Shown here piece by piece: positions 17,821-37,651 of a DNA stretch of 43,846 nt. Position 1 is the stretch's first letter. The number at the start of each line of letters is the position of its first letter. This DNA comes from Rickettsiales bacterium (GTDB lineage: Bacteria; Pseudomonadota; Alphaproteobacteria; Rickettsiales; JALZUV01), in the NCBI GenBank assembly GCA_029252805.1, contig JAQXAR010000013.1, forward strand, positions 1 to 43,846. The letters are read 5' to 3'. The notes under the pieces are model-generated. The model was not told the DNA's origin and ran no database searches. It worked only from the letters and a program-made list of their open reading frames with translations. Both the position numbers and the translations under genes were made by a program.

Positions 17821-18020
17821 TACGTAGACCACAGACAGCGCTTCTTTTGCTCACAAGGATAACTCTCTCGGCTGCACTCAAAACTCTATAAAAATCAAAA
17901 CAAATTTTACGCAAAATTGTAAAATAGTTGATATAAATCAATATATTATTCTGTTAACCTTTAAGACTTTATAAACATTGAGGGCATATAGTGAAGGTAG
18001 AAGTAACAAGGAGTTGCCTT

Positions 18021-18872
18021 ATGACCTCACGCTCAACAATCTTACTCGCAGTAGCTGGAACGATCGCCCTTGGCACTGCCTTCATGGTGCGCAACCATAT
18101 CTTATCCAGCAGCGCGGAGGCCTCGACTCCTACCGATATTACACGTGTGTTAGTCGCCTCAACCAATATTTCTCCCGGAAGCTTTATTCGTGGTGACAGT
18201 CATCTTGAATGGATGGAATGGCCTAGTAACAACATTAATGAGGCTTACCTTCTAGAAGGTAAAGCAGATCGCGAACAATTTTCAGGATCAGTCGTTAGAC
18301 GCCCCGTGGTAAAAGGAGAGCCCGTAACAGAAAGCCTTTTGGTTAATCCAGATGAAGGCGGCTTTATGGCAGCGGTGTTAGGTGCTGGAAAACGAGCCAT
18401 CTCTATCGCCGTCGATTCAACAACGGGTAACGCTGGTTTTATCTTTCCCGGCGATAAAGTGGATTTAATTTTAACACATAGCATTCCTGTTGATACGCCT
18501 ACTAGCGGCAATCAAGGTGACGTGCTCGCCAGCGAAACCTTTATTGAGGATGCTCGCGTATTGGCCGTTGACCAACAATTAGATAACCCTGAAAATCGGG
18601 CTATCATGGCAAAAACCGTGACACTTGAAGTGAGCAGGGAACAAGCAGAAAAGATTAATGTCGCCAAGGATCTGGGTAAAATCTCTCTTAGCTTGCGTAG
18701 CCTCGTTAATGGGAATGGTTCGCGCGATATAGCCTCAAACATTCAATATGTTCAAAAAGCAACCCGCGACAGCGATGTTAGCTCAGTGCTTAGCCCACGC
18801 ATTAGCACGAACACACGTACTGTCACCGTCATTCGCGGAGCCACTCGCGAACAACTACAATTCGGACAATAA
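18021..18872 (+). CDS. cpaB: Flp pilus assembly protein CpaB/RcpC
   Basis: The 283-residue protein has an N-terminal membrane anchor (about 5-22), then a SAF domain (VLVASTNISPGSFIRGDSHLEWMEWP, about 42-70). A RcpC/CpaB domain with GKRAISIAVDSTTGNAGFIFPGDKVDLILT follows at about 115-145. CpaB sits in the periplasm and helps anchor or gate the Flp pilus secretin. ATG at 18021 has AAGGAG 7 bp upstream; the GTG at 17991 is in frame but lacks that support. It opens the tad locus; cpaC follows 39 bp later. Confidence 0.92.
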   Translation: MTSRSTILLAVAGTIALGTAFMVRNHILSSSAEASTPTDITRVLVASTNISPGSFIRGDSHLEWMEWPSNNINEAYLLEGKADREQFSGSVVRRPVVKGEPVTESLLVNPDEGGFMAAVLGAGKRAISIAVDSTTGNAGFIFPGDKVDLILTHSIPVDTPTSGNQGDVLASETFIEDARVLAVDQQLDNPENRAIMAKTVTLEVSREQAEKINVAKDLGKISLSLRSLVNGNGSRDIASNIQYVQKATRDSDVSSVLSPRISTNTRTVTVIRGATREQLQFGQ

Positions 18873-18911
18873 TTCTAACAAATGCAACCCCGGTTCTCGG
18901 AGGACAACACC

Positions 18912-20333: not shown

Positions 20334-20349
20334 GGAAGAGGAGTTACTT

Positions 20350-20970
20350 ATGATTAAACAACTTATTATTTCAGGCTGCCTTCTAACGATGGTTACTGCC
20401 TGCGCAGATTACACCCCAACTGAAAAGTCTATGGTTTCGACGCAAGAGAAAGTTTTTCATTACGGTTTAGTTGAAGAGACCTTTGAGATTGAACCTTATG
20501 CGTGGGAAGAACTGGAGAATGCCTTAAAGCCCATGCCGCTGAAATACATGGAAGAGGTAGAGATTATTACCAATCGTCCAGAATTTATTCATACGGATGG
20601 CTATGAAAAAGTTCAGCTCGCTATCTGGCGCAAAGGATTAGAATCCAATCAAGTATTATATACGGCTTTCAAGGGTAAAAACCCTGCCAGTGTGAAAGTA
20701 GCAGTACGGTATCGCGGCATTTCTTACCCTAAACGCTGTTCAGATTGGCGACATAGCCCGATTATCAATCACGATAATAGCGCAATGAGCAATTTCGGAT
20801 GCGCCTCTACAATCAATCTCGGACATATGCTGTCCAATCAGAATGATTTACTGGAAAGCCGTGGCCAACATCATGGTCAGATGGAATCATCGGTTGCCGC
20901 TATTGAGAAGTTTTATCAAGGCGGACTTACGCAAACAACGCCTAACTCTAGCATTTCAACTACGGAATAA
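20350..20970 (+). CDS. cpaD: Pilus assembly lipoprotein CpaD
   Basis: The 206-residue protein has a lipoprotein signal ending MVTAC (Cys at about 18). A CpaD domain follows, with VAVRYRGISYPKRCSDW and FGCASTINLGHMLSNQNDLLESRG typical of the family. The protein is thought to be an outer-membrane or periplasmic partner of the secretin. It lies between cpaC and cpaE with a good AGGAAGAGGAG ribosome site. Confidence 0.88.
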   Translation: MIKQLIISGCLLTMVTACADYTPTEKSMVSTQEKVFHYGLVEETFEIEPYAWEELENALKPMPLKYMEEVEIITNRPEFIHTDGYEKVQLAIWRKGLESNQVLYTAFKGKNPASVKVAVRYRGISYPKRCSDWRHSPIINHDNSAMSNFGCASTINLGHMLSNQNDLLESRGQHHGQMESSVAAIEKFYQGGLTQTTPNSSISTTE

Positions 20971-20972
20971 TT

Positions 20973-22181
20973 ATGCAAAAAGAACCCGTACTTAGACCTA
21001 AAAAAACGCCGCAATTTGTAGCCTTCATCAAAGACCCTTCAAGCACGGATGCGGCACAATCCGTAGCCAGCAACCACGGCTGGTCAGAAAGCTGCGTGCA
21101 TTATGGGGATGTTAGGCAAGCGATCGTTTATTTAAAAGAACAAGTCGCGCCCAAAACACTCTTGATTGAAATTCCTTCGGCAAAAGATGCCCCGGAATTA
21201 CTTGATCGATTGGCTGATGTTTGCACGCCTAGTATGCGAATCATTATCGCGGGGGATATTGATGAGTTTAGCTTCTACTCTTGGCTTAAATCAATTGGCA
21301 TTGAGCATTATTTACTCCAGCCGTTTGACGCTAAAAAACTAGATGAAACCATTAGCATGCGTGCAGAGGGTGAAGAGGAGCAAAAGGATACCGAAGCAAA
21401 AGTTATTGCGGTGATTGGTGCACGAGGAGGAGTTGGCACCACTACTATTGCCACCAATTTAGCCTATTTATTAGCCGAAACTTATCATCATAAAACTGCA
21501 TTTCTGGATATTGATCCTTACTTTGGCACGGCGGCAACCGCCTATGATATTACGCCTAATCACGGCTTGCGTGATGCGCTTGATAAGCCTGATCGTATTG
21601 ACAATTTATTCTTAGAACGTGTCATGATTCAACATACTGACAATTTATCTGTTTTAAGTGCGGAAGAATCCTTTACTGAGATGGTCTCTAGTAGCGCCTC
21701 TGCCGCTGAAGCATTGATCGGCGGGTTAGCAGAGAATTTTGCTTACACCGTCGTCGACTTGCCGTGCAGCTTAACATCGTTGACTCGAAGCGTTTTAGCA
21801 CAGGCCGACCATATTGTTATTGTTGGAGAGCTAAGCCTTTTAAGTTTACGCGATATATTGCGCTTACGCGATTATTTCAAAAGTGGATTAAGCCAATCAG
21901 AACCGCTTATTGTCATTAACCGTAAAGGCCTCGCGGGAGAACACGAATTAACCATCAAAGAGTTCGAAAAAAATTACGGTCAAACAATAAACACTCTACT
22001 GCCCTTCACTCGCGAAGCTTTTTCCGCCACTAGCTCAGGAGAAATGCTGGTTGATGTCTCTAAAAATACCAAGCTGGTAGGTGCTATGCATGCACTCGCC
22101 GAGCAATTCACCGACTCTGAAATAAACGATAAACCAGTTCATAAAGTTAACCTACTCGATAAGCTATTGGGGAGAGAATAA
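20973..22181 (+). CDS. cpaE: CpaE/TadZ pilus localisation ATPase
   Basis: The 402-residue protein has an N-terminal atypical receiver-like domain (about 10-125) and a MinD/ParA-like ATPase domain. The ATPase starts VIAVIGARGGVGTTTIATNLA at about 145, a deviant Walker A without the signature Lys, as is usual in CpaE. DIDPYFGTAATAYD and YTVVDLPCSL follow. TadZ/CpaE places the pilus machine at its site in the cell, often a pole. The stop overlaps the cpaF start by one base. Confidence 0.93.
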   Translation: MQKEPVLRPKKTPQFVAFIKDPSSTDAAQSVASNHGWSESCVHYGDVRQAIVYLKEQVAPKTLLIEIPSAKDAPELLDRLADVCTPSMRIIIAGDIDEFSFYSWLKSIGIEHYLLQPFDAKKLDETISMRAEGEEEQKDTEAKVIAVIGARGGVGTTTIATNLAYLLAETYHHKTAFLDIDPYFGTAATAYDITPNHGLRDALDKPDRIDNLFLERVMIQHTDNLSVLSAEESFTEMVSSSASAAEALIGGLAENFAYTVVDLPCSLTSLTRSVLAQADHIVIVGELSLLSLRDILRLRDYFKSGLSQSEPLIVINRKGLAGEHELTIKEFEKNYGQTINTLLPFTREAFSATSSGEMLVDVSKNTKLVGAMHALAEQFTDSEINDKPVHKVNLLDKLLGRE

Positions 22182-23647
22182 TGTTTGGAAGAAAATCAGA
22201 AGACGAAAATGAAATTGAGGCAGCAGAGCCTGCGTTAGATACAATTGAGGAGCAAGAGGAAGAGGGTGATCCTGCACCAAAGTTTGAAAACTCTGCTGAA
22301 GATGCATTACGAAAATTAGACATAATGGCGGCCTCTGACGATGCAGAAGAGGAAACGGAAGCTTTAGAAAGCTCTGCCCAAAAAGAAGCAGATTCTGAAT
22401 CCCAGAAAATTAAACACGGCATCTATACGACATTGATGGAAAAAATTGATCTCAAAGCGGCTAACCTTTTAGACAAAGAAACGCTTGAGAAACAAATCAT
22501 CACGTTAATCAGCGAAATCACAGTTGAGAAGAATTTAGTGCTTAACCAGCAAGAACTCACCTCGCTCGCTCAAGAAATTGCCGATGATATGCTAGGCCAT
22601 GGGCCATTAGAACCTCTCCTAGATGACGATAGCATTACCGATATTATGGTAAATGGAGCCGATCAGGTTTATGTTGAACGCCACGGAAAGTTAGAACTAT
22701 CTGGGGTTAAGTTTCGTGATAACGCGCATGTTATGAATATAGCTCAGCGTATCGTAACCGCAATTGGCAGACGTGTTGATGAATCTACTCCCGTATGTGA
22801 TGCGCGCCTTGCAGATGGTAGCCGTGTTAATGTGATCGCCCCGCCCCTGGCATTGCGCGGATGCACTATTTCTATTCGTAAATTTGCCAAAAAGAAAATC
22901 ACGCTCGATATCATGGCCGAGCAGAATAATATCTCGGAAGATTTATGTAAGTTGCTCAAAATTGCAACGGCTAGCCGTTTAAATATTATTATTTCTGGCG
23001 GTACAGGATCTGGTAAAACGACATTATTAAATGCACTTTCACGGATGATTGATCACGGAGAAAGAATTGTCACTATTGAGGATGCTGCCGAACTCCAATT
23101 ACAACAACCCCATGTCGTCCCTTTAGAAACACGCCCCGCTAATCTTGAAAAAGAGGGCGAGATTACCATGCAAGATTTGGTGAAAAATGCACTCCGTATG
23201 CGCCCAGATCGCGTTATCTTAGGTGAGGTGCGTGGAGGTGAAGCCATGGACATGTTGCAAGCAATGAATACCGGCCATGACGGGTCTCTTGGCACCTTAC
23301 ACGCTAACAACCCACGTGAGGCTCTGACACGTTTAGAAAATATGGTTAATATGGCGGGCTATAGATTGCCCAGCCATGTGGTGCGTCATCAAATTTCAAG
23401 TGCGGTACAATTAATTGTTCAAATCCAGCGGATGCGCGATGGTATGCGCCGCGTGACTCATGTAACCGAAGTCATTGGCATGGAAGGCGATGTTATCGTC
23501 ACTCAAGATCTCTACACTTATAATTTTGAAGGCGTCGATGGGGAGGGTAACTTAATTGGCGAGTTTAAAGCCAGCGGCTTACGCCCTAATTTTATCACCA
23601 AAGCAGAGTATTTCGGATTGGATAAGGCCTTACTGGCCTTAATGTAG
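22181..23647 (+). CDS. cpaF: Flp pilus secretion ATPase CpaF/TadA
   Basis: The 488-residue protein has an acidic, probably disordered N-terminus (about 1-75). A helical domain and a type II/IV secretion ATPase core follow. Walker A is ISGGTGSGKTTLLNALS (about 270-286), the Asp/Glu box is IVTIEDAAELQL, Walker B is RPDRVILGEVRGGEAMDML, and the His box is HDGSLGTLHANNPREAL. This is the cytoplasmic motor that powers Flp pilus extension. TadB and TadC follow directly. Confidence 0.97.
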   Translation: MFGRKSEDENEIEAAEPALDTIEEQEEEGDPAPKFENSAEDALRKLDIMAASDDAEEETEALESSAQKEADSESQKIKHGIYTTLMEKIDLKAANLLDKETLEKQIITLISEITVEKNLVLNQQELTSLAQEIADDMLGHGPLEPLLDDDSITDIMVNGADQVYVERHGKLELSGVKFRDNAHVMNIAQRIVTAIGRRVDESTPVCDARLADGSRVNVIAPPLALRGCTISIRKFAKKKITLDIMAEQNNISEDLCKLLKIATASRLNIIISGGTGSGKTTLLNALSRMIDHGERIVTIEDAAELQLQQPHVVPLETRPANLEKEGEITMQDLVKNALRMRPDRVILGEVRGGEAMDMLQAMNTGHDGSLGTLHANNPREALTRLENMVNMAGYRLPSHVVRHQISSAVQLIVQIQRMRDGMRRVTHVTEVIGMEGDVIVTQDLYTYNFEGVDGEGNLIGEFKASGLRPNFITKAEYFGLDKALLALM

Positions 23648-23656
23648 GCACCCGCT

Positions 23657-24622
23657 ATGGAAAACTTATCCCTTGATATCATCATCTTTGGCGGCGTGGC
23701 TTTATTCATGGGTGTTGTCTTTCTTTTCATTCGTGAGAAAGGTGATGATAATAAGGTCAAAAATCGAATTAAAAGAGTCCACGGGCAAACGCTAGAAGAA
23801 AAAATTGAAGAAAAAGCACTAAGCCTTCGTCGTGAAACCGACACATCACTCAATCAGTATGGACTGGAAGATATTGGGAACCGCTTAAGCAGCCGTTTAC
23901 AAACGGCTGGGCTAGAGCTGACTGTCCGTAATTATATGCTTTTATGCATCGGCATCGCCTTCTTCTTATTTTTGGCAATTAGTATCTTCCTGCAAAAATC
24001 GTTACTGCTAGGGCTACTTGTTGGGTTTGTTCTAGGTTTTGGGATTCCTCACTTTTACGTCAACAGGCGTATTAGTCAAAGTAAGAAGAGCTTTCTAAAA
24101 CTCTTTCCGGATGCCATTGAATTAATTGTACGTGGCCTGCGCGCTGGCCTACCTGTAACGGAATCCATGCTAGCCGTTGCAGAAGAAGTCGCCGAACCTG
24201 TCTCAACCGTTTATAGAGAAATTGGCGATCAAGTGAAGCTAGGGGTCCCTATCGAAAAAGCGATGAGCGATATGGCCAATAACCTTAAAATGACAGAATT
24301 TGATTTCTTCGTTATCAGCGTGACCCTACAACGCGAAACAGGGGGGAATCTAGGCGAAATTCTCAGCAACCTAGCGGACGTACTGCGTCAGCGTCATATG
24401 TTGAAATTGAAAATCAGAGCGATGTCTTCCGAGGCACGAGCTTCGGCCATGATTGTCGGCGCACTTCCGTTTCTAGTACTGACCGCATTGATGTTTGTAT
24501 CACCTGAATATTTAACCCCTTTAGTTGACGATTATCGGGGGAATATGGCCTCTATCGGTGCTCTTTGTAGCATGGGAACTGGAATTTTCATTATGTCACG
24601 CATGGCACAGTTTAAGATTTAA
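23657..24622 (+). CDS. tadB: Flp pilus inner-membrane platform protein TadB
   Basis: The 321-residue protein has an N-terminal membrane segment, two central ones (about 95-135), and a T2SSF domain. The domain includes LFPDAIELIVRGLRAGLPVTESMLAVAEEV and LQRETGGNLGEILSNLADVLRQRH. Two C-terminal membrane segments end the protein. It forms the inner-membrane platform with TadC. It lies 9 bp after cpaF. Confidence 0.93.
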   Translation: MENLSLDIIIFGGVALFMGVVFLFIREKGDDNKVKNRIKRVHGQTLEEKIEEKALSLRRETDTSLNQYGLEDIGNRLSSRLQTAGLELTVRNYMLLCIGIAFFLFLAISIFLQKSLLLGLLVGFVLGFGIPHFYVNRRISQSKKSFLKLFPDAIELIVRGLRAGLPVTESMLAVAEEVAEPVSTVYREIGDQVKLGVPIEKAMSDMANNLKMTEFDFFVISVTLQRETGGNLGEILSNLADVLRQRHMLKLKIRAMSSEARASAMIVGALPFLVLTALMFVSPEYLTPLVDDYRGNMASIGALCSMGTGIFIMSRMAQFKI

Positions 24623-24634
24623 GGGGAAGAAATC

Positions 24635-25636
24635 ATGACTCCAGGAAAATCACTTACCCTCTCTAATATCTTGCCTAATGGCATTACAGTCGATGATTTT
24701 TATATAACGCTTACGGCAGTGGCGGCCTTTATCATCGTCTGGTCTTTAGGCGTGACTATAGGTAAACGTGACAAAGTACAGCCCCGCTTAAAAGCCATTC
24801 ACTCGCGACGTGAAGAACTCAAAGCCGCCTATCTTGCTCCCAAAGAAGATTCGAAAGCAACAGATCAACATAAAACTCCACCCAACTGGATGAAGCAAAT
24901 GGTGGATAAATTAGCCAATCTAAAAGGCGATCAAATTGCTAAACTCAATCAGCGACTCATTCAGGCAGGTAATCACTCCAAAGGGGCCGCAACAGTCTTC
25001 ATGTTTACGAAACTCGTCACTCCCTTCATCGGCCTAGCCATCGGCTTTCTTGTCGCCAAAATTGATTGGAGCAATGCCTTTTCCATAGATCAAGCGGCGA
25101 ATTGGCTCGGAGTTATCATCTGTGGTTACCTAGGTGCAGTCCTGCCTGACCTCCTGCTTTATAATAAACGCCAGAAACGTTATGGCGAGATTCGCATTGC
25201 ACTGCCCGACACGCTCGACCTTATGTTGATTTGTGCCGAGGCAGGCCTGAGCCTTTCTGCGGCGCTCGACAGAGTGACAAGAGAATTAGGAAATGCCTAT
25301 CCTGAAATGGCCGATGAATTAGGATATACTTCCGTTGAAATTGGTTTTTTACCCGAGCGCAGCTTAGCGCTAACCCATTTAGCTCATCGAGTCGATATCC
25401 AAGAGATCAGAGGGATTGTGAATGTACTACAACAGACGGAAAAATACGGCACACCCATCGGACAGGCATTGCGAGTGCTTTCCAAAGAATTTAGAACGGA
25501 ACGGATGTTGCGTGCTGAGCAGAAAGCCGCTCAACTCCCTGCAATCATGACCATTCCCCTCATCTTGTTCATTTTACCAACCCTTTTTGTTATTGTGCTG
25601 ACACCCGCCATCATTGGCATCCTGAATTCCCAGTAA
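24635..25636 (+). CDS. tadC: Flp pilus inner-membrane platform protein TadC
   Basis: The 333-residue protein has an N-terminal membrane segment (about 22-42), a central pair, and a T2SSF domain with LPDTLDLMLICAEAGLSLSAALDRVTRELG and LQQTEKYGTPIGQALRVLSKEFRTERM. A final membrane helix follows. It is the paralogue and partner of TadB. It ends the forward cpaB-tadC run; the next gene converges. Confidence 0.93.
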   Translation: MTPGKSLTLSNILPNGITVDDFYITLTAVAAFIIVWSLGVTIGKRDKVQPRLKAIHSRREELKAAYLAPKEDSKATDQHKTPPNWMKQMVDKLANLKGDQIAKLNQRLIQAGNHSKGAATVFMFTKLVTPFIGLAIGFLVAKIDWSNAFSIDQAANWLGVIICGYLGAVLPDLLLYNKRQKRYGEIRIALPDTLDLMLICAEAGLSLSAALDRVTRELGNAYPEMADELGYTSVEIGFLPERSLALTHLAHRVDIQEIRGIVNVLQQTEKYGTPIGQALRVLSKEFRTERMLRAEQKAAQLPAIMTIPLILFILPTLFVIVLTPAIIGILNSQ

Positions 25637-25649
25637 TCGCTGGAGTCTT

Positions 25650-26405
25650 TTATTTATTGTGGGCACGCATTTCTTTTGTATAATTTTTGTAGAATTTAAT
25701 ATTCTGTTCAAACTCTTTCTTACTGAGATCTTTCAAACCCCATTTACGTGCCTTTTTCATCTGACCTTTTAAGCCATAGGCCAATGCTAAATTTTGTCGC
25801 ATCACGGCAGACTTTTCCATCGTATCAATGGCAGTTAACTGGGCAATCGCTTCATCATATTGACCATTCATAATGTAAGACATCGCTAAATTACTTTGTA
25901 CAAATTCAGCCGATTCACTCGTCGTATCTAAAGCCTTAAAGTAAAGTGCCTGAGCCGCATCATGCTGGCCTTCCATATCGAGAGAAACCGCTTTACCGCT
26001 TAATAAATCCAGATGATTGGGCGTTCCTTCCAATCCATCATTAAAGTAGCCGATTGCCTCTTGTGTTTCGCCGCGATTAACTGCCAATTTAGCCAAACCT
26101 AGATTTACGAGTGCGGCTTTCGGTTGGCGCTTTTTAGCGGTGAGAAGAACTTCTTGCGCATCGCTATTTCTTTCAAGCTGAAGATACAAATCGGCAAGCG
26201 CCAGATGTGCTTCTACCTGATGCTTCGACTTAGCCATTGCGCGTTTATATAAATCAATCGCCGAATCCACATCACCCCCCGAACGCATGGTATCAGCGAG
26301 ATGAATTAAGCTGCGCTCACGATCTGACAAGGGGCCTTCCGACGCCGCTTGCGGGCCACACCCTGCTAATAAAATTAATCCTAATAATGCTACGGTCTTT
26401 TTCAT
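25650..26405 (-). CDS. TPR-repeat lipoprotein, TadD-like
   Basis: The 251-residue protein has a lipoprotein signal with lipobox LLAGC (Cys16), then about five to six tetratricopeptide repeats (for example DSAIDLYKRAMAKSKHQVEAHLALADLYLQ). TadD proteins of tad loci are TPR lipoproteins needed for pilus assembly, and the location between tadC and the tadE-like genes supports that role. It is unusual in being on the opposite strand to all other tad genes here, so it must have its own promoter. A general TPR lipoprotein cannot be excluded. Confidence 0.75.
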   Translation of the reverse strand: MKKTVALLGLILLAGCGPQAASEGPLSDRERSLIHLADTMRSGGDVDSAIDLYKRAMAKSKHQVEAHLALADLYLQLERNSDAQEVLLTAKKRQPKAALVNLGLAKLAVNRGETQEAIGYFNDGLEGTPNHLDLLSGKAVSLDMEGQHDAAQALYFKALDTTSESAEFVQSNLAMSYIMNGQYDEAIAQLTAIDTMEKSAVMRQNLALAYGLKGQMKKARKWGLKDLSKKEFEQNIKFYKNYTKEMRAHNK

Positions 26406-26524
26406 TTTACCACTTTCATCTGATTTATCGAAAACTTGATAGAAATTTAGATTAAATCCACTAAGTTATTCTTTTATAAAGATAAATTGTTGTTTATATC
26501 TTGAAATTATGGTATCGTAATTAG

Positions 26525-27106
26525 ATGGGATATACAAAGAAAAAACACTCTATCTTATCACGCTTTGTGCATTGCCAGCGAGGTGTCACCGCGATTGAGT
26601 TCGCCTTTGTTGCACCTGCCCTATTACTTCTCGTCACCGCCATTTTGGAGGTTTCCCTCATCCTCTTTGCACTAAGTACGCTGGAAGGTGCTGCCTTTAT
26701 GGCTTCGCGCACCGGAAAAACCGGGTACATTGCCACCGAATCAACGCGTGAAGAAACGATCCGCACGATACTAGATCAAAAGATGGAAGCTCTCTTCGAC
26801 ACACAAAAAATTACGATCCAATCACTCACTTACAACCAATTTGATCAAATTGGCGAAGTAGAACCATTTGTGGATGTAAATAATAATGGTGTCAGAGATG
26901 AAAATGAAAACTACACCGATGTGAATGGTAACGGTCAGTATGACTTGGACATGGGGATGGCTGGTGTAGGCAATACCAGCCAGATTGTGGTTTATACAAT
27001 TAATTACCCTTGGCCTGTTACCACTCCCATGATGAACCAATGGATCGGTGAAAATGGGATTATTAACCTGACGGCTCGGGCAATCACCCAGAACGAACCC
27101 TTTTGA
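26525..27106 (+). CDS. TadE-like pseudopilin with predicted calcium-binding loops
   Basis: The 193-residue protein has a TadE-type N-terminus: a short basic leader ending QRGVTAIEFAFVAPALLLL, where the hydrophobic helix follows the Gly and Glu of the prepilin processing site. Unusually, residues about 117-146 contain two Asp/Asn-rich loops, DVNNNGVRDENE and DVNGNGQYDLDM. They match the DxNxNGxxD pattern of EF-hand-like or dockerin-like calcium loops. The start is 119 bp after the divergent TPR gene. It is followed one base later by a second pseudopilin gene. Confidence 0.85.
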   Translation: MGYTKKKHSILSRFVHCQRGVTAIEFAFVAPALLLLVTAILEVSLILFALSTLEGAAFMASRTGKTGYIATESTREETIRTILDQKMEALFDTQKITIQSLTYNQFDQIGEVEPFVDVNNNGVRDENENYTDVNGNGQYDLDMGMAGVGNTSQIVVYTINYPWPVTTPMMNQWIGENGIINLTARAITQNEPF

Positions 27107-27107
27107 C

Positions 27108-27659
27108 ATGAAAATTCTTAGCAACATTCTGGAGTGTAACCGCGGTGTCGCCGCAGTCGAGTTTGCCTTGGTGCTGCCTTTACTACTACTACTCGGCCTC
27201 GGCGGATTTGAAGTTAGCCGATTTCTTTTGCTGCATCAAAAAACCGATAGAATAGCCTATACGGTGACAGATGTCGTCACGCAATCCACTTCACTCAGCA
27301 GCAACCAACTCGATCAAATTCTGACCGTAGCGTCTCAAATCATGCTCCCTTTCTCCTTTGAAAATGAAGGCGTCATCGTGCTCTCTTCAATCTATAAAAG
27401 CGGCAACAATGCGCCAACGGTTCGTTGGCAGTATAAAGGGGGTGGCACTTTAGTTCGTGATAGTAAAATTGGCTCAACCAATCATGAGGCAACCTTGCCT
27501 CTTCTTCTGACACTGAACGATAAGGACAATGTCATTATTTCGGAAGTGTATTACACCTACAAGCCTTTCTTTGGTCTGGGTGTTTTTGCACCAGTAGATC
27601 TTTATAAAACCGTCTTCTTCAAACCACGCTTGGGCGCATTAACCACGCCTCCGGTGTGA
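27108..27659 (+). CDS. TadE/TadF-like pseudopilin
   Basis: The 183-residue protein starts CNRGVAAVEFALVLPLLLLLGLGGFEVSRF after a short leader, the same prepilin-like processing and helix pattern as the gene before it. By position it is the TadF-type minor pseudopilin. The soluble part has no recognised domain. The reading frame starts one base after the upstream stop and ends 15 bp before the tadG start, consistent with one operon. Confidence 0.82.
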   Translation: MKILSNILECNRGVAAVEFALVLPLLLLLGLGGFEVSRFLLLHQKTDRIAYTVTDVVTQSTSLSSNQLDQILTVASQIMLPFSFENEGVIVLSSIYKSGNNAPTVRWQYKGGGTLVRDSKIGSTNHEATLPLLLTLNDKDNVIISEVYYTYKPFFGLGVFAPVDLYKTVFFKPRLGALTTPPV

Positions 27660-27673
27660 GAAAAGAGAGCATT

Positions 27674-29065
27674 ATGAACTTTCACCATACTCTTATTACT
27701 AAACTCCTTCAGTGCCGCCGAGGTGGAGTGATGCCACTGCTTGGTATCTCCATCACACTACTGATTGGCATGACCGGAGCAGCGGTTGACATGGGGCGCG
27801 CCCAGCAGGCACAAACCAAACTTTCCAGCTCACTGGACGCAGCAGGGTTGGCCGCAGGCGCAACCATCAGCACAACTGATCTAAACGCGGAAGCAAATAA
27901 ATACCTAGAGGTCAATTTCCAGGACTACCTGGGAGCCACCATCACCGACTTCACCACGACCGTAAATGCAGATAATTCAACCATTACTTTATCTGCTACC
28001 GCTACTGTTCCCACTACACTTATGCAAGTGATGGGAATTCATTCTAACACCGTTCATGCTTCTTCAGAAATTATCCGTTCTAGCAAAGGACTGGAACTAG
28101 CGATGGTACTTGATAATACCGGATCCATGAGCGGATCCAAACTCACCTCTCTCAAATTGGCAGCGACTGATCTGGTCAATATCCTCTATGGCGCAAACGA
28201 TACGGTTGATGATCTTTACATTGGGCTCATACCATTCTCACAGGCAGTAAATATTGGCACTTCGCGCGCCAGCTGGACGGCAACCAATGGCTTCAACTGG
28301 GGCTCAACAAACTGGAGCAGTTGCGTCGATGCACGCTACAACGATAACCGCGATGTAACAGATGACCCGCCCAGCGTCTCCCTTTTTACGCAATATTACT
28401 GGCCATGTCACAGCAGCAAGAACGCTTGGTATGGCACTAATTATAACCGTAGCAACTGCTCCACTTCAGGCACCATTAGATACAAATCAAATTTGGGAAC
28501 CTCCAGTGGACCTAATAAATATTGCCCACAACCCGTCACCGCATTAACATCCAGTAAGCCCAATATACTCAGCGCCATCGGCGGCATGCAAGCCGTCGGC
28601 TATACTCATATTAACCTGGGAGCAGCATGGGGATGGCGCATGTTATCACCCCGGTGGCGCGGGTTATGGGGTGGCGAAATGAATACCCAAAACCTACCAT
28701 TAGACTACAATACACAGAACATGAACAAGGCCGTCATCATCATGACCGATGGAGACAATACGATGAGTAATAACAGCCATACGGCCTATGGTTATTTGTT
28801 TGAAGGCATTCTGGGGACTACCAGTTCCAGCAGCGCCAAGGTGGAACTCGACAACCGATTATTGCAAGTATGTTCAGCAATGAAACAAAATAATATCATC
28901 GTTTATACTGTATCCTTCGGATCGGTCAGTGGTTCCAGCCAAACCATGATGCGTAACTGCGCCTCACAGCCGGATTATTATTTTAATTCTCCCAGCAGCG
29001 GTGACCTGCAACAGGCCTTTCGTGCCATTGGTGATTCTTTAGCAAGCCTGAGAGTAAGCCGATAG
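27674..29065 (+). CDS. tadG: TadG-like von Willebrand factor A protein
   Basis: The 463-residue protein has a TadE/G-type N-terminal helix (CRRGGVMPLLGISITLLIGMTGAAVDMGRAQ) and a vWA domain starting about residue 138 (LELAMVLDNTGSMSGSKL). The DxGSM metal-site motif and a later IIMTDGDNT motif are both present. A long Cys/Trp/Asn-rich insert (about 215-300, several Cys) sits inside the vWA domain. TadG proteins are envelope components of Flp pilus loci. ATG at 27674 follows AAAGAGAG; the GTG at 27656 overlaps the upstream stop and is less likely. Confidence 0.87.
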   Translation: MNFHHTLITKLLQCRRGGVMPLLGISITLLIGMTGAAVDMGRAQQAQTKLSSSLDAAGLAAGATISTTDLNAEANKYLEVNFQDYLGATITDFTTTVNADNSTITLSATATVPTTLMQVMGIHSNTVHASSEIIRSSKGLELAMVLDNTGSMSGSKLTSLKLAATDLVNILYGANDTVDDLYIGLIPFSQAVNIGTSRASWTATNGFNWGSTNWSSCVDARYNDNRDVTDDPPSVSLFTQYYWPCHSSKNAWYGTNYNRSNCSTSGTIRYKSNLGTSSGPNKYCPQPVTALTSSKPNILSAIGGMQAVGYTHINLGAAWGWRMLSPRWRGLWGGEMNTQNLPLDYNTQNMNKAVIIMTDGDNTMSNNSHTAYGYLFEGILGTTSSSSAKVELDNRLLQVCSAMKQNNIIVYTVSFGSVSGSSQTMMRNCASQPDYYFNSPSSGDLQQAFRAIGDSLASLRVSR

Positions 29066-29389: not shown

Positions 29390-30676
29390 ATGACGACAGC
29401 TAATTTTCACGACCTTGGTCTTATAGAGCCACTCACACGTGCTTTGGACGCAAATAGTTATGTAACACCCACCCCAATCCAACTTAATGCCATTCCCTCA
29501 TTACTTGAAAGTCAAGATTTACTGGGTATCGCGCAAACAGGAACCGGAAAAACGGCAGCATTTGCTTTACCCATTTTACAGCATTTATTTAAAACACAGC
29601 GTAACCCTACATCGCGCACAACACGTGCGTTAGTACTTGCCCCGACCAGAGAACTAGCCATCCAGATTGCAGATAATTTCCAAATATACGGTAAACATCT
29701 CTCACTACGTCAAACCACCATTTACGGTGGAGTAAATCAAAAACCACAAGTTAAAATGATGTCTAAAGGCGTCGACATACTTATCGCAACGCCGGGCCGG
29801 TTACTTGACTTGATGCAACAAGGCCATGTCGACCTTGGGTCGGTTACGCATTTGATTTTAGATGAAGCAGATCGCATGTTAGATATGGGGTTCATCAATG
29901 ACATCAGAAAGATTATCGCCAAAATTCCAAGAAAAAGACAAACACTACTCTTTTCCGCCACGATGCCCGGCTCTATTAGTAAGCTGGCAAACAGCCTATT
30001 GAATAATCCTAAAACCGTTGAGGTCACACCAGAGGTTATTACCGTCGAGAAGATCGATCAAAGTCTCTATAAAGTGGCTAAAAAAGATAAGCGAGCATTG
30101 TTAGTCACTTTACTTCAAAACGAAAATATCACTAAAGCCATTATCTTTAGCAGAACTAAACATGGTGCCAACCGCATTGTACAAGAGCTTGACCACGCAC
30201 GTATTTCGAGCGCGGCTATTCACGGTAATAAGTCGCAAAGCGCCCGTCAAAAAGCGCTGGCAGCATTTAAAAACGGTGAGATTAGAACGCTCGTTGCGAC
30301 TGACATTGCAGCACGCGGTATTGATGTAGACAATATTAGCCATGTGATAAATTATGACCTGCCGTCCGAACCCGAAAGTTATGTCCACCGTATTGGCCGC
30401 ACTGCACGCGCTGGCACCCAAGGGATTGCTCTTTCATTCTGTGACGAAACAGAAGGCAAAACTTTACGTGATATCGAAAAAGTCATTAAGTTCAAAATTG
30501 CGGTAGCAAAAACTCCTGAACTTGAAAAGTTGTCGCCTCTTCCAGCAGTATCCAAAGAGCGTCAAGGCACAGGTAAAAAGCAAAATAGCAATAGATCCAG
30601 AAATAATAAGCCAAAACCCGCGAGTGACAATAATAAACCAAAAAAGAACCGAAGCCGTCACACAAGAAGAAAATAA
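29390..30676 (+). CDS. rhlE: DEAD-box RNA helicase RhlE
   Basis: The 428-residue protein has the full DEAD-box set: Q motif (YVTPTPIQLNAIP), motif I AQTGTGKT (about 48-55), APTRELA, TPGRLLDL, DEAD in LILDEADRMLDMGF, SAT in LLFSATMP, then the second RecA domain with VATDIAARGIDVD and YVHRIGRTARAG. The C-terminus (from about 375) is a basic, Asn/Lys/Arg-rich tail. The sequence is closest to the RhlE type, linked to RNA turnover and cold or ribosome-related RNA remodelling. It has a good ribosome site and appears monocistronic. Confidence 0.93.
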   Translation: MTTANFHDLGLIEPLTRALDANSYVTPTPIQLNAIPSLLESQDLLGIAQTGTGKTAAFALPILQHLFKTQRNPTSRTTRALVLAPTRELAIQIADNFQIYGKHLSLRQTTIYGGVNQKPQVKMMSKGVDILIATPGRLLDLMQQGHVDLGSVTHLILDEADRMLDMGFINDIRKIIAKIPRKRQTLLFSATMPGSISKLANSLLNNPKTVEVTPEVITVEKIDQSLYKVAKKDKRALLVTLLQNENITKAIIFSRTKHGANRIVQELDHARISSAAIHGNKSQSARQKALAAFKNGEIRTLVATDIAARGIDVDNISHVINYDLPSEPESYVHRIGRTARAGTQGIALSFCDETEGKTLRDIEKVIKFKIAVAKTPELEKLSPLPAVSKERQGTGKKQNSNRSRNNKPKPASDNNKPKKNRSRHTRRK

Positions 30677-31056: not shown

Positions 31057-34000
31057 ATGCCATTTTCGAATACCCAAACGATAAAATTTACCGATAAAAT
31101 AAGCTATAAAGCACCTGTAAATGGCGAAGACATCTATAATAAAATTCTGAAATTAATAGACAGTGATGAATCACTCCGTACAGCGATACTTACAGATGAA
31201 GAGGGTGAGAAAAAGAATAAATTCTTCAACCATTTCTTACATGAAATATCCCATGAACTTGCAGCAGCTACCTACACAAGCGGTGTAAGCGACCACGCAA
31301 CGATTGACCGACTCAGCTTTGACGATCTGGCTTCCGCCTTTCTGCAGAAAAAAGGGTACACAGATAAATCAGCCATCAACGACCTGCCAAATGAGGTCAA
31401 GTTCAACCTTTACAAAGAGTTCACTGCTAAAATCAAAACCATCCACCCCCGTATTTTAGAGCAAACTCCTCATCCGACCGAACCGCTCTCCACACAAGCG
31501 ATTAACAGCTATACTGCCTTGCGTAATTTTGCGCGTAACGAAGCCCGGCCTTTATTTGAGCACCCAGATTTCACATTAGATAAAACGAACATAGACGTGC
31601 AAACACTCAAGGATAAGATTCGGAACTTTTACGACAACCTGGAACCGCCGCCCACTAGCCTAAGCGCCGAAAATGAGCAAGCACGTAGCGCAGTCTTATC
31701 TAAAAATATTTATGACTCGGTTCCCATACTCGCCAGCAACCTCATTAAAACACGAGATATGTTCGGGCTGAAAGCGGTTAAAAACGAGTCGGAAAGAGAC
31801 ACACTCAAAGAACAAATGCGCGATGAGGCCCTCAAAGCCGGCGCCTATATGATACGCAACTACACGTGGTCTCCTATGGATATGGATGGCAAGTTGCAGA
31901 TGGACCGTCGCAAGGCAGAAGAAGGCTTACAAGGCAAAAAGCTCGCCATCAACCAGCAATATATTGAAGACCTATCCAACCTCGCGCTGAATTTGCAAAA
32001 AGGAAGCGGTAATAAACTAGCAGTCGAACGCATCCAAGCCCTCATCTGGAATTTATTTGGCAATATTGAAAAAATCTATCCCACCATAACCAATGATAAA
32101 GATGGCTTACCTTTAGAGGAGCAAGTCTATTTCGATAAAATCAAAGATTTCATTAAAAACGTTGATTCGCGTAATAATGAAGGAGTCAGAGACTTTATTC
32201 AGGACATTTGGGACAAACGCGACCAAGAAAAAACTCGTAATGACATTAATTTATTGAAATACGCTAAAAGAACAATCCATTATCTAAAGAAAGCGGATCC
32301 TCCAAGGGAACAATCCATTATCAGGCAAGAAGCAATTATCGCTGAAGCAGAAGAAGCCATCGCCCACTCGCACAAAGAAACCTTTGTCGATAATTACGTA
32401 AGTAATCCTGAAGGCATCATCCCCGCTGATAAAATTCTATCAGAGCTAAAAGAGATTGCTGAAATACCGAAGGTGCGCGATGTGAAATATAAAACCACGG
32501 TTCGTTCATCTTATGAGTTAAGTGAAATTGATGCCGTGGCCTTAAAAGTCGCAACCTATCAAAACAGTGCTCAAAAAATCACGTGGCGCCAATCGGCGGG
32601 TGTTCACGAAGAAGTCATGACGGAGGTTTTAAACTTTATTCAAGATAGGGATTCCGTACTCAACCCGAGTAGAAAGCTGAAACCTGCTCCCAACTTCATG
32701 AAAAAAATTAACGAATTAATTTCCTCCCACGCCTTACCCGAAATTAAAAAGACGCATGGTGAGCTTCTTGATGTGCGTGATCTCATTCACATTATGCAAA
32801 GCAAAGATAATAAAGTCATCAAGCTGGCAAATGAAATTCGTACCGCCATTCGTGGGCAAGTCCGAGCCAACAGAGATAGCGCGTATGAGAAAAAAGACGC
32901 ACTCGCGCACATGGACTCAACGGCTGAGCAAGAAGCGCATTTTAAGAAGCATCAAAAAGAAATTTACACTTATGAAACGCTCGATGTTGTTGATTTTGTC
33001 AATCAGAAGGGGGAAGATTTCGGACATATCCTAACCGCTGAAACGGATGGACCAGAGGCACTATGGAGCGTATTTGCAGAACAATTGGTAATGCAAAATC
33101 CGAAAAAACTTCCTACAAAAAAGGAAATTAGTAAACAGCCGCAAATTATCGCCCTCACTGAATATTTAGACGATATCGTCAATCTCCCCCAAAATATTGC
33201 AAAAGCGATGGCATTTAAACCCTTTCGCAACGAAATGAAAGCGCGTGCTGAAGAGTCCCCTCCTTGGCTTCAAGTCTGGAATGAAGAGAAAAAAGGCCTA
33301 GCACCCATGACCGTCAACGATCTCTTAGATCAAATTGAAAATGGTCAACCTGATAAGGATATCGCGGCACAAACTAAACACGAAATGCTCGATATCATTA
33401 AACGTCGTATCGTTCTAAAATTACACGATGATAAGGCTGATTTAAGCCCGAAAGCACTGAAAAATGTTTCTAATGAGGATGTCGAGAAAGTAAGCGAAAA
33501 ACAACTAAACGAAGCCTTGGGGCAGAATGTACTCAGCTATGTCGCGATGGTCGCGGGCAGTGACTCTTTCAAATCTGCCGGTGCAGCCATTGAATATACC
33601 ATCGACCGCCGCTTTGCAGATTCGCAAAAACAACTCATGGCCTATGATACACTCTTAAACTTCTATATGGGTAACGGCTCTGCCACGCATCGTGTCGGTA
33701 TCACTAACGCACTGATACGCACCCACCAAGGGCGCCAGATGAAAGAAGGCTCTGAAACACTCGCCGCTGAAAGCATGAATGTTATCAGCAAAGTTTTCGC
33801 CAATAAATTTGATCACTCCTTAGTGATTGGGAGTCCTAAGACCCCTGTCGAAAAATTTATCGTCGGAATTCATAATATTGGCAACCGCTGTAATATGGAA
33901 ACCGAGATGACGGCGGCAGATCACAAACTTTACGACGACCTCTGTTACGAATCCGAAGCCTTTTACAGCTCTATCTATAAAGATTACGGTAACGGTGAGC

Positions 34001-35088
34001 ACCGTCCAGCCGTCATTACCGAAGCGGAAAAACGTATTAAACATAAGCTCCCCAAAGGGATTACACCTAAAGATTTCGGCAATTACATGAAGGATGTCAC
34101 CTTAAGCAAACTGGATGCCGTGAGCAAAAATGGGGCCCGCTTTGACTTCCGCCCCGGCGGCACTCCCGATGCGCACGTGGATTCCATGCGCGCAATTGGT
34201 TATGGCGCCGCCCATGGCTATACCGGCTTTGGCCAGCCGCATCTCACCTTCGCCCTTGCGCATATGCTAGGCGCAGATGAGGAGGGAAAAATAAATGCTA
34301 AAGAGACGTTTACGAGCTTTATTAACAACCCCTATTTACAAGGCCGTTTAAACCGTGCCGTTAAAGATCTAGTCGTTGAATTCGCGCCCGAAACAGGCTG
34401 GAAAAACGTTGCCTCAGGCTGTGGCGTAGAAAACCTTTCCTACGAATATGATACTGATTCAGACAAGCTTGCTGCCATTATCATCGGAAAAGAAAACTTC
34501 ACCATTGACGAGTTACTCAAAGGCGATGATCGCACACTCGAACGCCTCTCACTTGCCATTCAGCAGAACCGGGACTCTCAATCGAAACACTTCATCAATG
34601 AAGATGAAGATAAAATAATCTCAACAGAACGAGTCGTTAAAAATATCCGCATGGCCGCGGTGATGGAATCAGAAGCACGTCAAGCGATTAGCGCCACCAC
34701 ACAACTTTTTGAGGAGTTCAAACGCCAAGCTGAAGTGAGAAGTTCGGAAACGACAGGGCGCACGGATAACCCGGAAACCTTACTTAAACATTTCCAAGAT
34801 ATCACGCCAACCAAAGGGGCAGAGATGGCCTTTCTACGCAAGCAATATCAAGGGAGCTTGGTCCATGCGAGTCATAGCTTCAAAACCTATAATAACCTCC
34901 AAGGTGAGCTCCCTAAAAAGACAGGCGACAAGGGTGATACGGAAGCCTATAAAGCTTACCGCGATTCCTATTACGATATCGCTTTGATGAAAACAATTTT
35001 GGAAACACCGCTAACGAGTGATAAATCACCAGCCTATGCCATCGATATTGCGAGTAACGCATTACCAAAAGGTATTTCAAAAGAGTAA
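31057..35088 (+). CDS. Giant divergent phosphoenolpyruvate carboxylase-like protein
   Basis: The 1343-residue protein follows the motif order of PEP carboxylase (PEPC), which carboxylates PEP to oxaloacetate, but is about 450 residues longer than normal. Matches in order, with E. coli Ppc equivalents: His139 in TPHPTE (His138); TWSPMDMDG at 270-278 (the WxGGDRDGNP box, altered); Arg511 in TWRQSAGVHEE (Arg396 of RQES); Glu662 in ILTAETDGPEAL (metal Glu506); TEYLDDIVNLPQ (FETIDDL box); Asp836 and Lys839 in GSDSFKSAG (metal Asp543, Lys546); Arg879 in GNGSATHRVG (Arg587); Arg1032 and Arg1045 in RPGGTP...MRAI (Arg699, Arg713). Deviations: the first Arg of the GRGG loop is Asn873, the TEQGE box is GSETLAAES, WTQxR is lost, and the C-terminus ends KGISKE rather than in NTG. 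No signal peptide or membrane segment. The homology is my alignment by eye; whether it still carboxylates is unknown. The ribosome site is weak. Confidence 0.75.
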   Translation: MPFSNTQTIKFTDKISYKAPVNGEDIYNKILKLIDSDESLRTAILTDEEGEKKNKFFNHFLHEISHELAAATYTSGVSDHATIDRLSFDDLASAFLQKKGYTDKSAINDLPNEVKFNLYKEFTAKIKTIHPRILEQTPHPTEPLSTQAINSYTALRNFARNEARPLFEHPDFTLDKTNIDVQTLKDKIRNFYDNLEPPPTSLSAENEQARSAVLSKNIYDSVPILASNLIKTRDMFGLKAVKNESERDTLKEQMRDEALKAGAYMIRNYTWSPMDMDGKLQMDRRKAEEGLQGKKLAINQQYIEDLSNLALNLQKGSGNKLAVERIQALIWNLFGNIEKIYPTITNDKDGLPLEEQVYFDKIKDFIKNVDSRNNEGVRDFIQDIWDKRDQEKTRNDINLLKYAKRTIHYLKKADPPREQSIIRQEAIIAEAEEAIAHSHKETFVDNYVSNPEGIIPADKILSELKEIAEIPKVRDVKYKTTVRSSYELSEIDAVALKVATYQNSAQKITWRQSAGVHEEVMTEVLNFIQDRDSVLNPSRKLKPAPNFMKKINELISSHALPEIKKTHGELLDVRDLIHIMQSKDNKVIKLANEIRTAIRGQVRANRDSAYEKKDALAHMDSTAEQEAHFKKHQKEIYTYETLDVVDFVNQKGEDFGHILTAETDGPEALWSVFAEQLVMQNPKKLPTKKEISKQPQIIALTEYLDDIVNLPQNIAKAMAFKPFRNEMKARAEESPPWLQVWNEEKKGLAPMTVNDLLDQIENGQPDKDIAAQTKHEMLDIIKRRIVLKLHDDKADLSPKALKNVSNEDVEKVSEKQLNEALGQNVLSYVAMVAGSDSFKSAGAAIEYTIDRRFADSQKQLMAYDTLLNFYMGNGSATHRVGITNALIRTHQGRQMKEGSETLAAESMNVISKVFANKFDHSLVIGSPKTPVEKFIVGIHNIGNRCNMETEMTAADHKLYDDLCYESEAFYSSIYKDYGNGEHRPAVITEAEKRIKHKLPKGITPKDFGNYMKDVTLSKLDAVSKNGARFDFRPGGTPDAHVDSMRAIGYGAAHGYTGFGQPHLTFALAHMLGADEEGKINAKETFTSFINNPYLQGRLNRAVKDLVVEFAPETGWKNVASGCGVENLSYEYDTDSDKLAAIIIGKENFTIDELLKGDDRTLERLSLAIQQNRDSQSKHFINEDEDKIISTERVVKNIRMAAVMESEARQAISATTQLFEEFKRQAEVRSSETTGRTDNPETLLKHFQDITPTKGAEMAFLRKQYQGSLVHASHSFKTYNNLQGELPKKTGDKGDTEAYKAYRDSYYDIALMKTILETPLTSDKSPAYAIDIASNALPKGISKE

Positions 35089-35140: not shown

Positions 35141-37651
35141 CTAACGATCTAGATTTTGCTGACCATCATTTCGTCGCTTCATTTCTGCCGCTGCCCAACT
35201 AAAGATTCCTGCCTTATGCGCGACGAGAGCTGTGAGGCCAAGCACGGCCGCACCTGCCAATATTTTAAGCGCCTTTGGCTTCTCCCGTTTTTGTGTTTTA
35301 GGGTCTTTCTTGCCAATAAAAATTTCTTTGACCGTAATAGGAATAGCAAGAAGGCTGCCCACCGCTACAGCAGCGGAAGTTATACTGAGTTTGTTCTCGC
35401 TAGCAGGAACACCTGCATCACTTTTCCGACCACCTTGCGGTTCGCCTGCCTCTGATGCAGAAGGTATATCGTTATTTACCTGAGACGAAGCAGGTGAAGT
35501 GACTGACTCAGCAACTTCCCCTACTTCTTCCTCTTCTTCCCCTACTTCCCCTACTTCCTCTACTTCCTCTACTTCCCCTACTTCTTCCTCTACTGTTTCC
35601 TGAGAGAGCACGGGCGCTTCTACCAGAAGGGGTATTTCTACCGGAGAGTTATCTTTGATTATTTCTCCAGGTGACTCCTCTATGTCTGTGGCAGTATCAC
35701 CCGGAAGAGTTCCTACTGGTGCGTCAGCGGGTAGTTCTCCTAATGCTGAGATCAACACAGGCAGCACTTCTTCCTCTTCAGCGCTGTGTGATGAGGGGCC
35801 GCTAGCTTGTAAAAGAGCGAGTGGGGCAGTTATTTCCAGATCATCAGGTGGATTGCTGCCGCCTGAAGCCACACCACCTTCGCTAACAGCAATGTCCGGA
35901 ATTTCCGCATAAGGGTTGCGAATAACGGGGCGAATGCGTTTAGGCATTTCCTTACTCGGGTGCGGCTGCTCTAAAGGAACCTGAGGGTAAGGTATATTAT
36001 GCTTCTTCATTAGTTCGTCAACTCGGCTGGTTAATACCTCACGTTCTTCGGCACTCTTCGTATTGCGACCTTGATCAACCAAATTGATGGTTTTCTCATA
36101 ATCACGACGAAACGTTTCGTCTAATTTTGCCTGCCCCTCTACACTCACTTTGATAAGTTTTGGGTTAAGGCCATTGCCTAAAAGAGAATCATTTTTCAAA
36201 CAAAATTTTTCTGGAATAACTTGATAGGGATAACCTTTTGACGCTTTGTAATAGGCACGCCCAGGAGTCCCATTATCATCTGTGTTAGTATCATAATTTT
36301 CGTATTGCGCGACTTTTGGACCCAGTAAATGCGCCACCGCTGCAACGCCCGCAGGATGATAACCCGCTCGTTTAATCTTACTGTAATCTTGCTGGGTGTA
36401 ATAAAGGGCATAAATTTGTGCCATCGGTGAGTTGAGAAAATCTTCTGCATTGGAAATGGTATCCCCTGCCACCTCAAAATTATTCCATTCCCCTGTTTCT
36501 CGATTCACAAAAGGAGTACCAGCAATGGCTGTTTTAATTGGTTTTTTAAGATTAAATTGTCCTATCCCGCCATACGAACCGGTTTTATACGATAACCTCC
36601 CCAACCCATCTTTAGTTCTATGCCGCTTTAAGTTACCTAAAAAACTATAAATATGAGGATCCGGACCGATTTGTAACGCAGGTCTGCTTTCTAAAAGAGC
36701 AAGCTGAGCCAGCCGCTGATTATTACTTAACTCATAGTCAACTCCCTTAGGCATTTCGGGCTGGAAGCGTAATATATTCAATAGCAATTTACGCGAGTCT
36801 TGTTGACGGGTAAAATTAGAAATGTCGCGGAGGTCTTCATTTGCTTGAGGGAAGTTTGAGAGATCCCATATTCGCTGCCCTGCCGGTGGAATCGCATGAT
36901 TCTCAATTAAATATGCCATGGTTGCTTCATTATCGCGGAAGTTACTTTGATTCATGTAATCCGTTTTGACGGCGCGACGGCTTAACGGAACATGCGTGTC
37001 GTGGCGCAACTCACCATCTACCGTAGGCATTCCATATATTTTGGGCCCCTTGCTGCCAGAAGTACGCCATTTCAACACCTTTACGCCATCTACCGCAATA
37101 AATCTTGCTAGATTATCAACAATAATATCTTGATGGGCTTCATGCACATCGCCTGCATACCAAGTGTATTCTAGCGGAACCCCGGCTTTATTTAGTTTTT
37201 TGACATCTTCACGGCTAAGCGTAACCGTTTCACCATTTCCCGCCATTTCGCTCAAATTAAAAACGCGGCTTTGCCCAGCGACGAGGCTATCAATATTATG
37301 TGCCTGCGACTCCCCTGTCAGCTTGCTTTTTAGAATACGTGCGTTTAACTCTTGTTTATAATCAGTATTATAATCAATATAGGCAAAACCGCCAGGACTC
37401 GTTTTTTCTAATGATAGCCCTTCTTCTTCCTCCAAAAAGGGCGATACAGTTGCTATGCTATCAACGCTTGGCACTTCGTCTATGACAGTAATAGGGTCAG
37501 GAAAAACTTCCTTTTCTACTGAGTTACTATTGGGCGCTTTAGGGTTGATTAGCGCCAATTGCAGTGGAATCTGCAGCATAGCCATCGCTCTTCCGGTAGA
37601 GTACCTAAAACGCTCCAGAATGCTTTTGTTGGATTTTTCTTTCTCTTCCAC
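35141..37651 (-). CDS. Large protein with muramidase-like core, acidic repeat and C-terminal membrane helices
   Basis: The 836-residue protein starts at GTG. There is no classical signal peptide, only a short hydrophobic stretch (about 22-36). Residues about 310-470 resemble phage-type lysozyme/transglycosylase domains: ALLESRPAL (candidate catalytic Glu321), GSYGGIGQFNL at 358-368, a segment FLNSPMAQIYALYYTQQDY, and GVAAVAHLLGPKVA (His441) followed by NTDDNGTPGRAYY. A Pro/Glu/Ser-rich stretch (about 560-735) contains a Glu/Val repeat (about 684-714). Two membrane segments lie at about 755-778 and 797-824, separated by a Lys-rich loop. A tail-anchored, cell-wall-facing or host-directed enzyme is possible. 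It converges on the PEPC-like gene with 52 bp between. The muramidase call is an inference from motif pattern. Confidence 0.6.
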   Translation of the reverse strand: MEEKEKSNKSILERFRYSTGRAMAMLQIPLQLALINPKAPNSNSVEKEVFPDPITVIDEVPSVDSIATVSPFLEEEEGLSLEKTSPGGFAYIDYNTDYKQELNARILKSKLTGESQAHNIDSLVAGQSRVFNLSEMAGNGETVTLSREDVKKLNKAGVPLEYTWYAGDVHEAHQDIIVDNLARFIAVDGVKVLKWRTSGSKGPKIYGMPTVDGELRHDTHVPLSRRAVKTDYMNQSNFRDNEATMAYLIENHAIPPAGQRIWDLSNFPQANEDLRDISNFTRQQDSRKLLLNILRFQPEMPKGVDYELSNNQRLAQLALLESRPALQIGPDPHIYSFLGNLKRHRTKDGLGRLSYKTGSYGGIGQFNLKKPIKTAIAGTPFVNRETGEWNNFEVAGDTISNAEDFLNSPMAQIYALYYTQQDYSKIKRAGYHPAGVAAVAHLLGPKVAQYENYDTNTDDNGTPGRAYYKASKGYPYQVIPEKFCLKNDSLLGNGLNPKLIKVSVEGQAKLDETFRRDYEKTINLVDQGRNTKSAEEREVLTSRVDELMKKHNIPYPQVPLEQPHPSKEMPKRIRPVIRNPYAEIPDIAVSEGGVASGGSNPPDDLEITAPLALLQASGPSSHSAEEEEVLPVLISALGELPADAPVGTLPGDTATDIEESPGEIIKDNSPVEIPLLVEAPVLSQETVEEEVGEVEEVEEVGEVGEEEEEVGEVAESVTSPASSQVNNDIPSASEAGEPQGGRKSDAGVPASENKLSITSAAVAVGSLLAIPITVKEIFIGKKDPKTQKREKPKALKILAGAAVLGLTALVAHKAGIFSWAAAEMKRRNDGQQNLDR
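35512..35595 (-). repeat. Glu/Val-coding microsatellite-like repeat
   Basis: About nine near-identical units built from CTTCCCCTA, CTTCCTCTA and CTTCTTCCT (9-bp period, plus-strand reading) encode EEVGEVEEVEEVGEV-type sequence within the 836-residue protein. All units keep the reading frame, so copy number could vary between strains without breaking the gene. Confidence 0.8.

Follow-up and report, generated by a model that had tools for sequence, protein, structure and literature searches.

What kind of protein is encoded by a 1343-residue gene of a Rickettsiales bacterium that the standard models fail to recognize? The open reading frame (ORF) in question is intact, begins with ATG and lies at 31057–35088 on the forward strand of contig JAQXAR010000013.1 (assembly GCA_029252805.1), of which we analyzed a stretch of 43,846 nucleotides, hereafter the window. 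A first-pass annotation had described its product as a phosphoenolpyruvate (PEP) carboxylase (PEPC)-like protein with the PEPC motifs in order. Searched as a single sequence, the protein matched no model in Pfam or NCBIfam, no PEPC among PDB sequences and no entry in PADLOC or PHROGs, and no relative was found in the viral contigs and plasmids searched. The Pfam, NCBIfam and PDB searches came back empty because the protein is strongly diverged, and the family becomes visible only through its relatives. A search with the Pfam PEPcase model (PF00311) likewise reports no PEPC in the source genome of the window (G000; other G numbers denote genomes of relatives), because its divergence puts it beyond the reach of this model.

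Homologues were found in other Rickettsiales, two of which match PF00311 (E 1.2e-12 and 3.1e-9). A family profile spanning the order, from which the window protein was excluded, scores this protein at 139.6 bits over residues 116–1205; its scores with a canonical PEPC profile and a class II profile are 2.2 and 5.9 bits. When profiles were compared with profiles, one built from six sequences of the protein's own clade matched canonical PEPC with a probability of 99.7% (E 1.1e-25). The fold predicted by AlphaFold2 for residues 101–1300 (predicted local distance difference test, pLDDT, 71; predicted template modeling score, pTM, 0.77) points the same way: the best 50 Foldseek matches were all PEPCs (best E 3.5e-14), and in VIA-align the top 23 entries were PEPCs (Z 15.7–17.8; E. 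coli 1jqn, Z 17.1); archaeal-type PEPC (3odm) had Z 11.2, and the closest unrelated fold, a barrel, had Z 6.9. The first-pass annotation had proposed a Pfam PEPcase search and a structure comparison as checks, the absence of any match to speak against PEPC; both return PEPC, the former through the relatives' profiles and the latter through the predicted fold. We conclude that, as judged from these profiles and this model, the 1343-residue protein is a homologue of the bacterial/plant-type PEPC.

The group to which it belongs stands apart from the canonical enzyme. The canonical PEPC equivalog NF000584 (cut-off 815 bits) does not match the window protein and gives its relatives 54–155 bits. In the tree, the window protein sits on a branch of 1.75–2.06 changes per site and groups with G022, G037a and G110 (Shimodaira–Hasegawa-like approximate likelihood ratio test, SH-aLRT, 96–98 in two alignments), the deep placement being unsure because the branches are long. 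Profile, fold and tree support an undescribed and very divergent group, separate from canonical PEPC, in line with the new subfamily that had been suggested.

To locate the active site we relied on profile alignment, which confirmed the order of the motifs, and on conservation counted over 40 aligned group sequences, with eight later-found members held out. All core residues of the bacterial/plant-type superfamily (PF00311) are present (H139, R511, E702, D836, R879, R1028 and R1045). On the forward strand, H139 corresponds to the catalytic His138 of E. coli within an HPT motif (H139–T141, 31471–31479; kept in 39/40 relatives and in 8/8 held-out members), and W271 and D277 correspond to Trp248 and Asp254 within WSPMDMDG (W271–G278, 31867–31890), which also holds the Asp252 equivalent (the W and first D, 40/40). 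R511 is placed at Arg396 by joint alignment (32587–32589), and E702 at the metal ligand Glu506 (33160–33162; 40/40), the profile–profile alignment pairing ALTE with PLFE. D836 and K839 match Asp543 and Lys546 within SDSFKSAG (S835–G842, 33559–33582; S and D 40/40). In the altered glycine-rich loop, GNGSATHR (G872–R879, 33670–33693), the alignments put R879 at Arg587 and N873 at the position of Arg581. The TEQG box reads THQG (T889–G892, 33721–33732), with Q891 kept at Gln613 (40/40). Finally, R1028 and R1032 in RFDFR (34138–34152) match Arg699 and Arg703 in the profile–profile alignment (R1028 column 40/40), and R1045 in RAI (R1045–I1047, 34189–34197; R 40/40) matches Arg713.

Most of the eight residue assignments previously made by eye agree with this alignment (His139, Arg511, Asp836, Lys839, Arg879 and Arg1045), and two have to be moved. 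Glu662, taken for Glu506, lies in another block (IAECxxxxD in relatives, AETDGPEAL here), the true equivalent being E702; Arg1032, taken for Arg699, aligns with Arg703, and Arg699 is R1028. The alterations noted in the glycine-rich loop (HGRGG to MGNGS) and the TEQGE box (THQGR here) are borne out, as are the approximately 450 added residues, which fall mainly near residues 318–419 (32008–32313, forward strand; a gap in the family profile with mostly low pLDDT in the model), near residues 734–820 (33256–33516, forward strand; likewise a family-profile gap) and at the C-terminus.

The conservation of this site is high relative to that of the rest of the protein. Trp248, Asp252, Leu504, Glu506, Ser542, Asp543, Gly580, Arg587, Gln613, Arg699 and Arg713 are present in 40/40 group sequences, His138 in 39/40 and Arg396 in 36/40, while the mean pairwise identity is 20% within the group versus 37% among the sampled canonical PEPCs. 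The eight held-out members keep His138, Trp248, Asp254, Arg396, Glu506, Asp543, Arg587, Gln613, Arg699 and Arg713 in 80/80 cells. In 24 columns, conservation reaches at least 90% with the same residue as in E. coli, and these columns include 7 of the 10 named PEPC active-site residues (hypergeometric P ~6e-9). In three pairs of group relatives, the window protein itself having no kin close enough for such an estimate, the ratio of nonsynonymous to synonymous substitution rates (dN/dS) was 0.13, 0.11 and 0.29, with dS near saturation in two pairs; selection on the PEPC gene in these pairs is purifying.

Taken with the predicted fold, these residues make it likely that the window protein, though highly diverged, is a PEP carboxylase competent for catalysis, which would carry out the anaplerotic C3-to-C4 step of its source bacterium. 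We favor a functional PEP carboxylase as the reading because the metal ligands, the arginines for the PEP phosphate, Arg587 and His138 are kept, as the two partial reactions need. In such an enzyme, E702 and D836 would bind Mg2+, while R511, R1045 and neighboring residues would bind PEP; PEP and bicarbonate would then yield carboxyphosphate and enolpyruvate, R879 and H139 would act on these intermediates, and oxaloacetate would be released as the product. The roles given here to residues other than His138, His579 and Arg587 are those generally known from PEPC structures.

The PEPC reaction is also favored because the source genome is without every other tested C3-to-C4 route. The normal ppc whose presence elsewhere had been raised as a check was found neither in this genome nor in any of 263 sampled genomes of the order, where the best PF00311 piece reached 157 bits versus 700–1100 for the majority of full-length canonical PEPCs from other parts of the class. 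Pyruvate carboxylase and ATP-type PEP carboxykinase (PEPCK) were absent from the same 263 genomes, and no other oxaloacetate-forming carboxylase was recognized in the source genome, GTP-type PEPCK and malic enzyme not having been searched for. With the family profile, members were detected in 56/263 genomes, usually in one copy, as in the source genome. Presence follows genome size, with the gene in 23/39 genomes of at least 1.6 Mb versus 1/25 smaller ones (all at least 90% complete; P 4e-6, a guide only, as the genomes are related).

Several observations weigh against this reading. Among the order's large genomes that are close to complete, 9/39 are missing both the PEPC-like gene and isocitrate lyase, and the C3-to-C4 step is therefore not universally needed. 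As several genomes are metagenome assemblies, any single absence noted here is weak evidence. Within the loop changed from HGRGG to MGNGS, His579 is replaced by M871 and Arg581 by N873; both positions vary across the group, and 0/8 held-out members have either residue. His138, His579 and Arg587 are named as important for the activity of E. coli PEPC in work cited in PMC11832675, and the group keeps two of the three (His138 and Arg587). Lys773, which serves aspartate inhibition, aligns with V1107, in a C-terminal part where the alignment is weak. Substrate, activity and loss of aspartate control are inferred from the sequences and the predicted fold. With His579 and Arg581 lost, and Lys773 probably so, the kinetics may well be altered, and the enzyme would not be inhibited by aspartate.

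The same substitutions could instead reflect a PEPC fold whose metal–enolate chemistry was recruited for another substrate, with chemistry of the carboxyphosphate or enolate type acting on a different phosphorylated acid. The mouth of the active site has diverged, and the free variation of the two lost positions across the group would suit such a change of substrate. We regard it as unlikely, given that the other catalytic and Mg-binding residues tested are retained without exception, among them Arg396, Arg713, Arg587 and His138, that the order lacks the other tested C3 carboxylases (canonical PEPC, pyruvate carboxylase and ATP-type PEPCK), and that one copy per genome, the usual state, fits a core metabolic step.

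How the gene is inherited bears on the next alternative. At the loci of relatives, as distinct from the window's own locus, we observed differing PEPC types between conserved neighbors. In genus g78, the order of nine flanking genes is common to G110 (L020) and G129 (L078), with identities of 59–87%, while the PEPC gene, which in both has a yaaA-like and a tadE-like gene as neighbors, lies on opposite strands and shows 14% identity (BLAST E 0.79). A third type occupies this site in G142 (g78, L186), and G055 (L188), from another genus of the same family, has a relative of the G142 type; among these four genomes the PEPC types at the site are ~14–25% identical mutually, one being inverted. Similarly, G076 (L066) and G084 (L187), of one genus, have flanks 73–95% identical and PEPC genes 16% identical on opposite strands, and between polyphosphate-kinase-like (ppk) and ppx/gppA-like genes G037 (L007:6247–9657) and G052 (L192:5825–9598) have flanks at 77% and PEPC genes at 16%, again on opposite strands. 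For G006 and G011, from different families, the values are 45–71% and 18%, on the same strand.

PEPC types are also shared across family lines. Between G110 (f23) and G037a (f17), identity is 32%. G055 (f23) shows 48% identity to G052 (f17) versus 15–16% to G110 and G129, which occupy this site in the family of G055; the three g78 genomes are spread over three separate clades of the tree. The combination of synteny and tree suggests repeated in-place replacement by distant group members. Drift in place alone fails to explain the differing types, and our results suggest xenologous displacement in place; differential loss of ancient tandem paralogues is an alternative. Displacement of a similar kind is known for variable families, with biological conflict as one proposed cause (PMC9425974). 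As a tentative proposal, possible rather than probable, the PEPC gene of environmental Rickettsiales may be a hypervariable exchange cassette, a frozen active site on a fast-turnover scaffold. At fixed sites in the chromosome it would be repeatedly replaced by members with identities down to 14%, and the driving force would be diversifying selection that acts on the scaffold (through regulation, a partner or conflict) and not on catalysis.

In-place replacement and types that cross families would also be explained, along with the fast change, by an effector that is exported or directed at a host, or by a conflict protein of another kind, using PEPC activity outside the cell. In the closest pair, moreover, the PEPC gene is less constrained than its neighbors (dN/dS 0.13 versus 0.02–0.11). 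We nevertheless find an effector quite improbable: no signal peptide is obvious by eye, the PADLOC and PHROGs searches gave no match, most members are single copy, and the gene order looks metabolic, with an acetyl-CoA synthetase-like gene in a conserved arrangement in two genomes and a position between ppk and ppx-like genes in others. Least plausible of all is the regulatory pseudoenzyme raised by the first-pass annotation, or a decaying gene, to which the loss of His579 and Arg581 and a split frame near the HPT motif in G157 might point, since the catalytic set is near-invariant over ~50 sequences at ~20% identity, dN/dS is purifying (0.11–0.29 in three pairs) and the ORFs are intact, at 730–1300 residues, in most member genomes. 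In G157 (L067:6541–6920), a frameshift next to an A-rich run interrupts the frame a short way upstream of the HPT motif; it may be a sequencing error, decay or a programmed frameshift.

Compared with canonical bacterial/plant-type PEPC (PF00311, NF000584; E. coli Ppc, PDB 1FIY/1JQN), a highly diverged PEP carboxylase of this kind has the fold (Z 17.1 to 1jqn), the motif order and His138, Arg396, Glu506, Asp543, Lys546, Arg587, Gln613, Arg699 and Arg713 in common. It differs in its ~17% identity over aligned columns, its ~460 extra residues, the lack of a Pfam or NCBIfam match, the changed HGRGG loop and the probable loss of Lys773. A second alphaproteobacterial PEPC class resembles it in being far from canonical (canonical-model pieces of 40–95 bits versus 700–1100), in having lost His579 and Arg581 and in keeping the same catalytic core; unlike the window protein's group, this class is coherent and more conserved (its members being ~29% identical to one another), and it has a THGES loop and, at position 546, Arg. 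It is the class II whose profile gives the window protein 5.9 bits. Copies carried on plasmids of Phyllobacterium and Burkholderia bear the plain annotation phosphoenolpyruvate carboxylase. At its loci (L125–L160), where THGES stands for HGRGG, it was not seen together with canonical PEPC in the genomes sampled at class level. Archaeal-type PEPC (PepcA; 3ODM) shares a related barrel (Z 11.2) but is ~500 residues long, whereas the window protein, at 1343 residues, has the long bacterial-type architecture and was not matched by TIGR02751 in the NCBIfam search. A review of the PEP–pyruvate–oxaloacetate node distinguishes four types of PEPC (archaeal-type, bacterial, plant bacterial-type and plant-type) and in the parts available to us describes neither divergent group (PMC8100219).

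Around the gene, a DEAD-box helicase (29390–30676, forward strand) ends 380 bases upstream, and a convergent 836-residue ORF follows (35141–37651, reverse strand), with a stretch that is acidic and of low complexity and, toward the C-terminus, a hydrophobic segment. The latter had no Pfam, PADLOC, PHROGs or PDB match and was not found in the same-genus genome G001. There, the helicase orthologue (81%) adjoins Mrp/Mnh-antiporter-like membrane genes without PEPC; this could not be read as an empty site, as the helicase neighbors differ and the assembly is 86% complete. A Tad/Flp pilus cluster (17991–29065, forward strand) lies near the PEPC gene, and PEPC in family f23 also adjoins tadE-like genes. 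The window also holds a malate synthase gene (5939–7564, reverse strand), which first suggested a glyoxylate shunt; isocitrate lyase was not found in the source genome, and the suggestion was dropped. Elsewhere, G065 (L089:2896–8805) encodes a 1969-residue ORF in which the PEPC-like region is the C-terminal part only. We discarded a PF00311 match in G163, which reads as a site-specific recombinase, and a G164 candidate without PEPC motifs.

In part of the order, then, a central anaplerotic enzyme has drifted past the standard models, and metabolic reconstructions of Rickettsiales can miss PEPC; the main text of two recent genome studies leaves PEPC unmentioned (PMC9352585, PMC10847448). In environmental Rickettsiales, the enzyme has changed almost everywhere except in its active site and is apparently still catalytic. 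The group thereby reveals which PEPC residues stay fixed while nearly all else changes, and His579 and Arg581 are not among them. A core metabolic gene would here undergo exchange at its own site, as a variable surface locus does.

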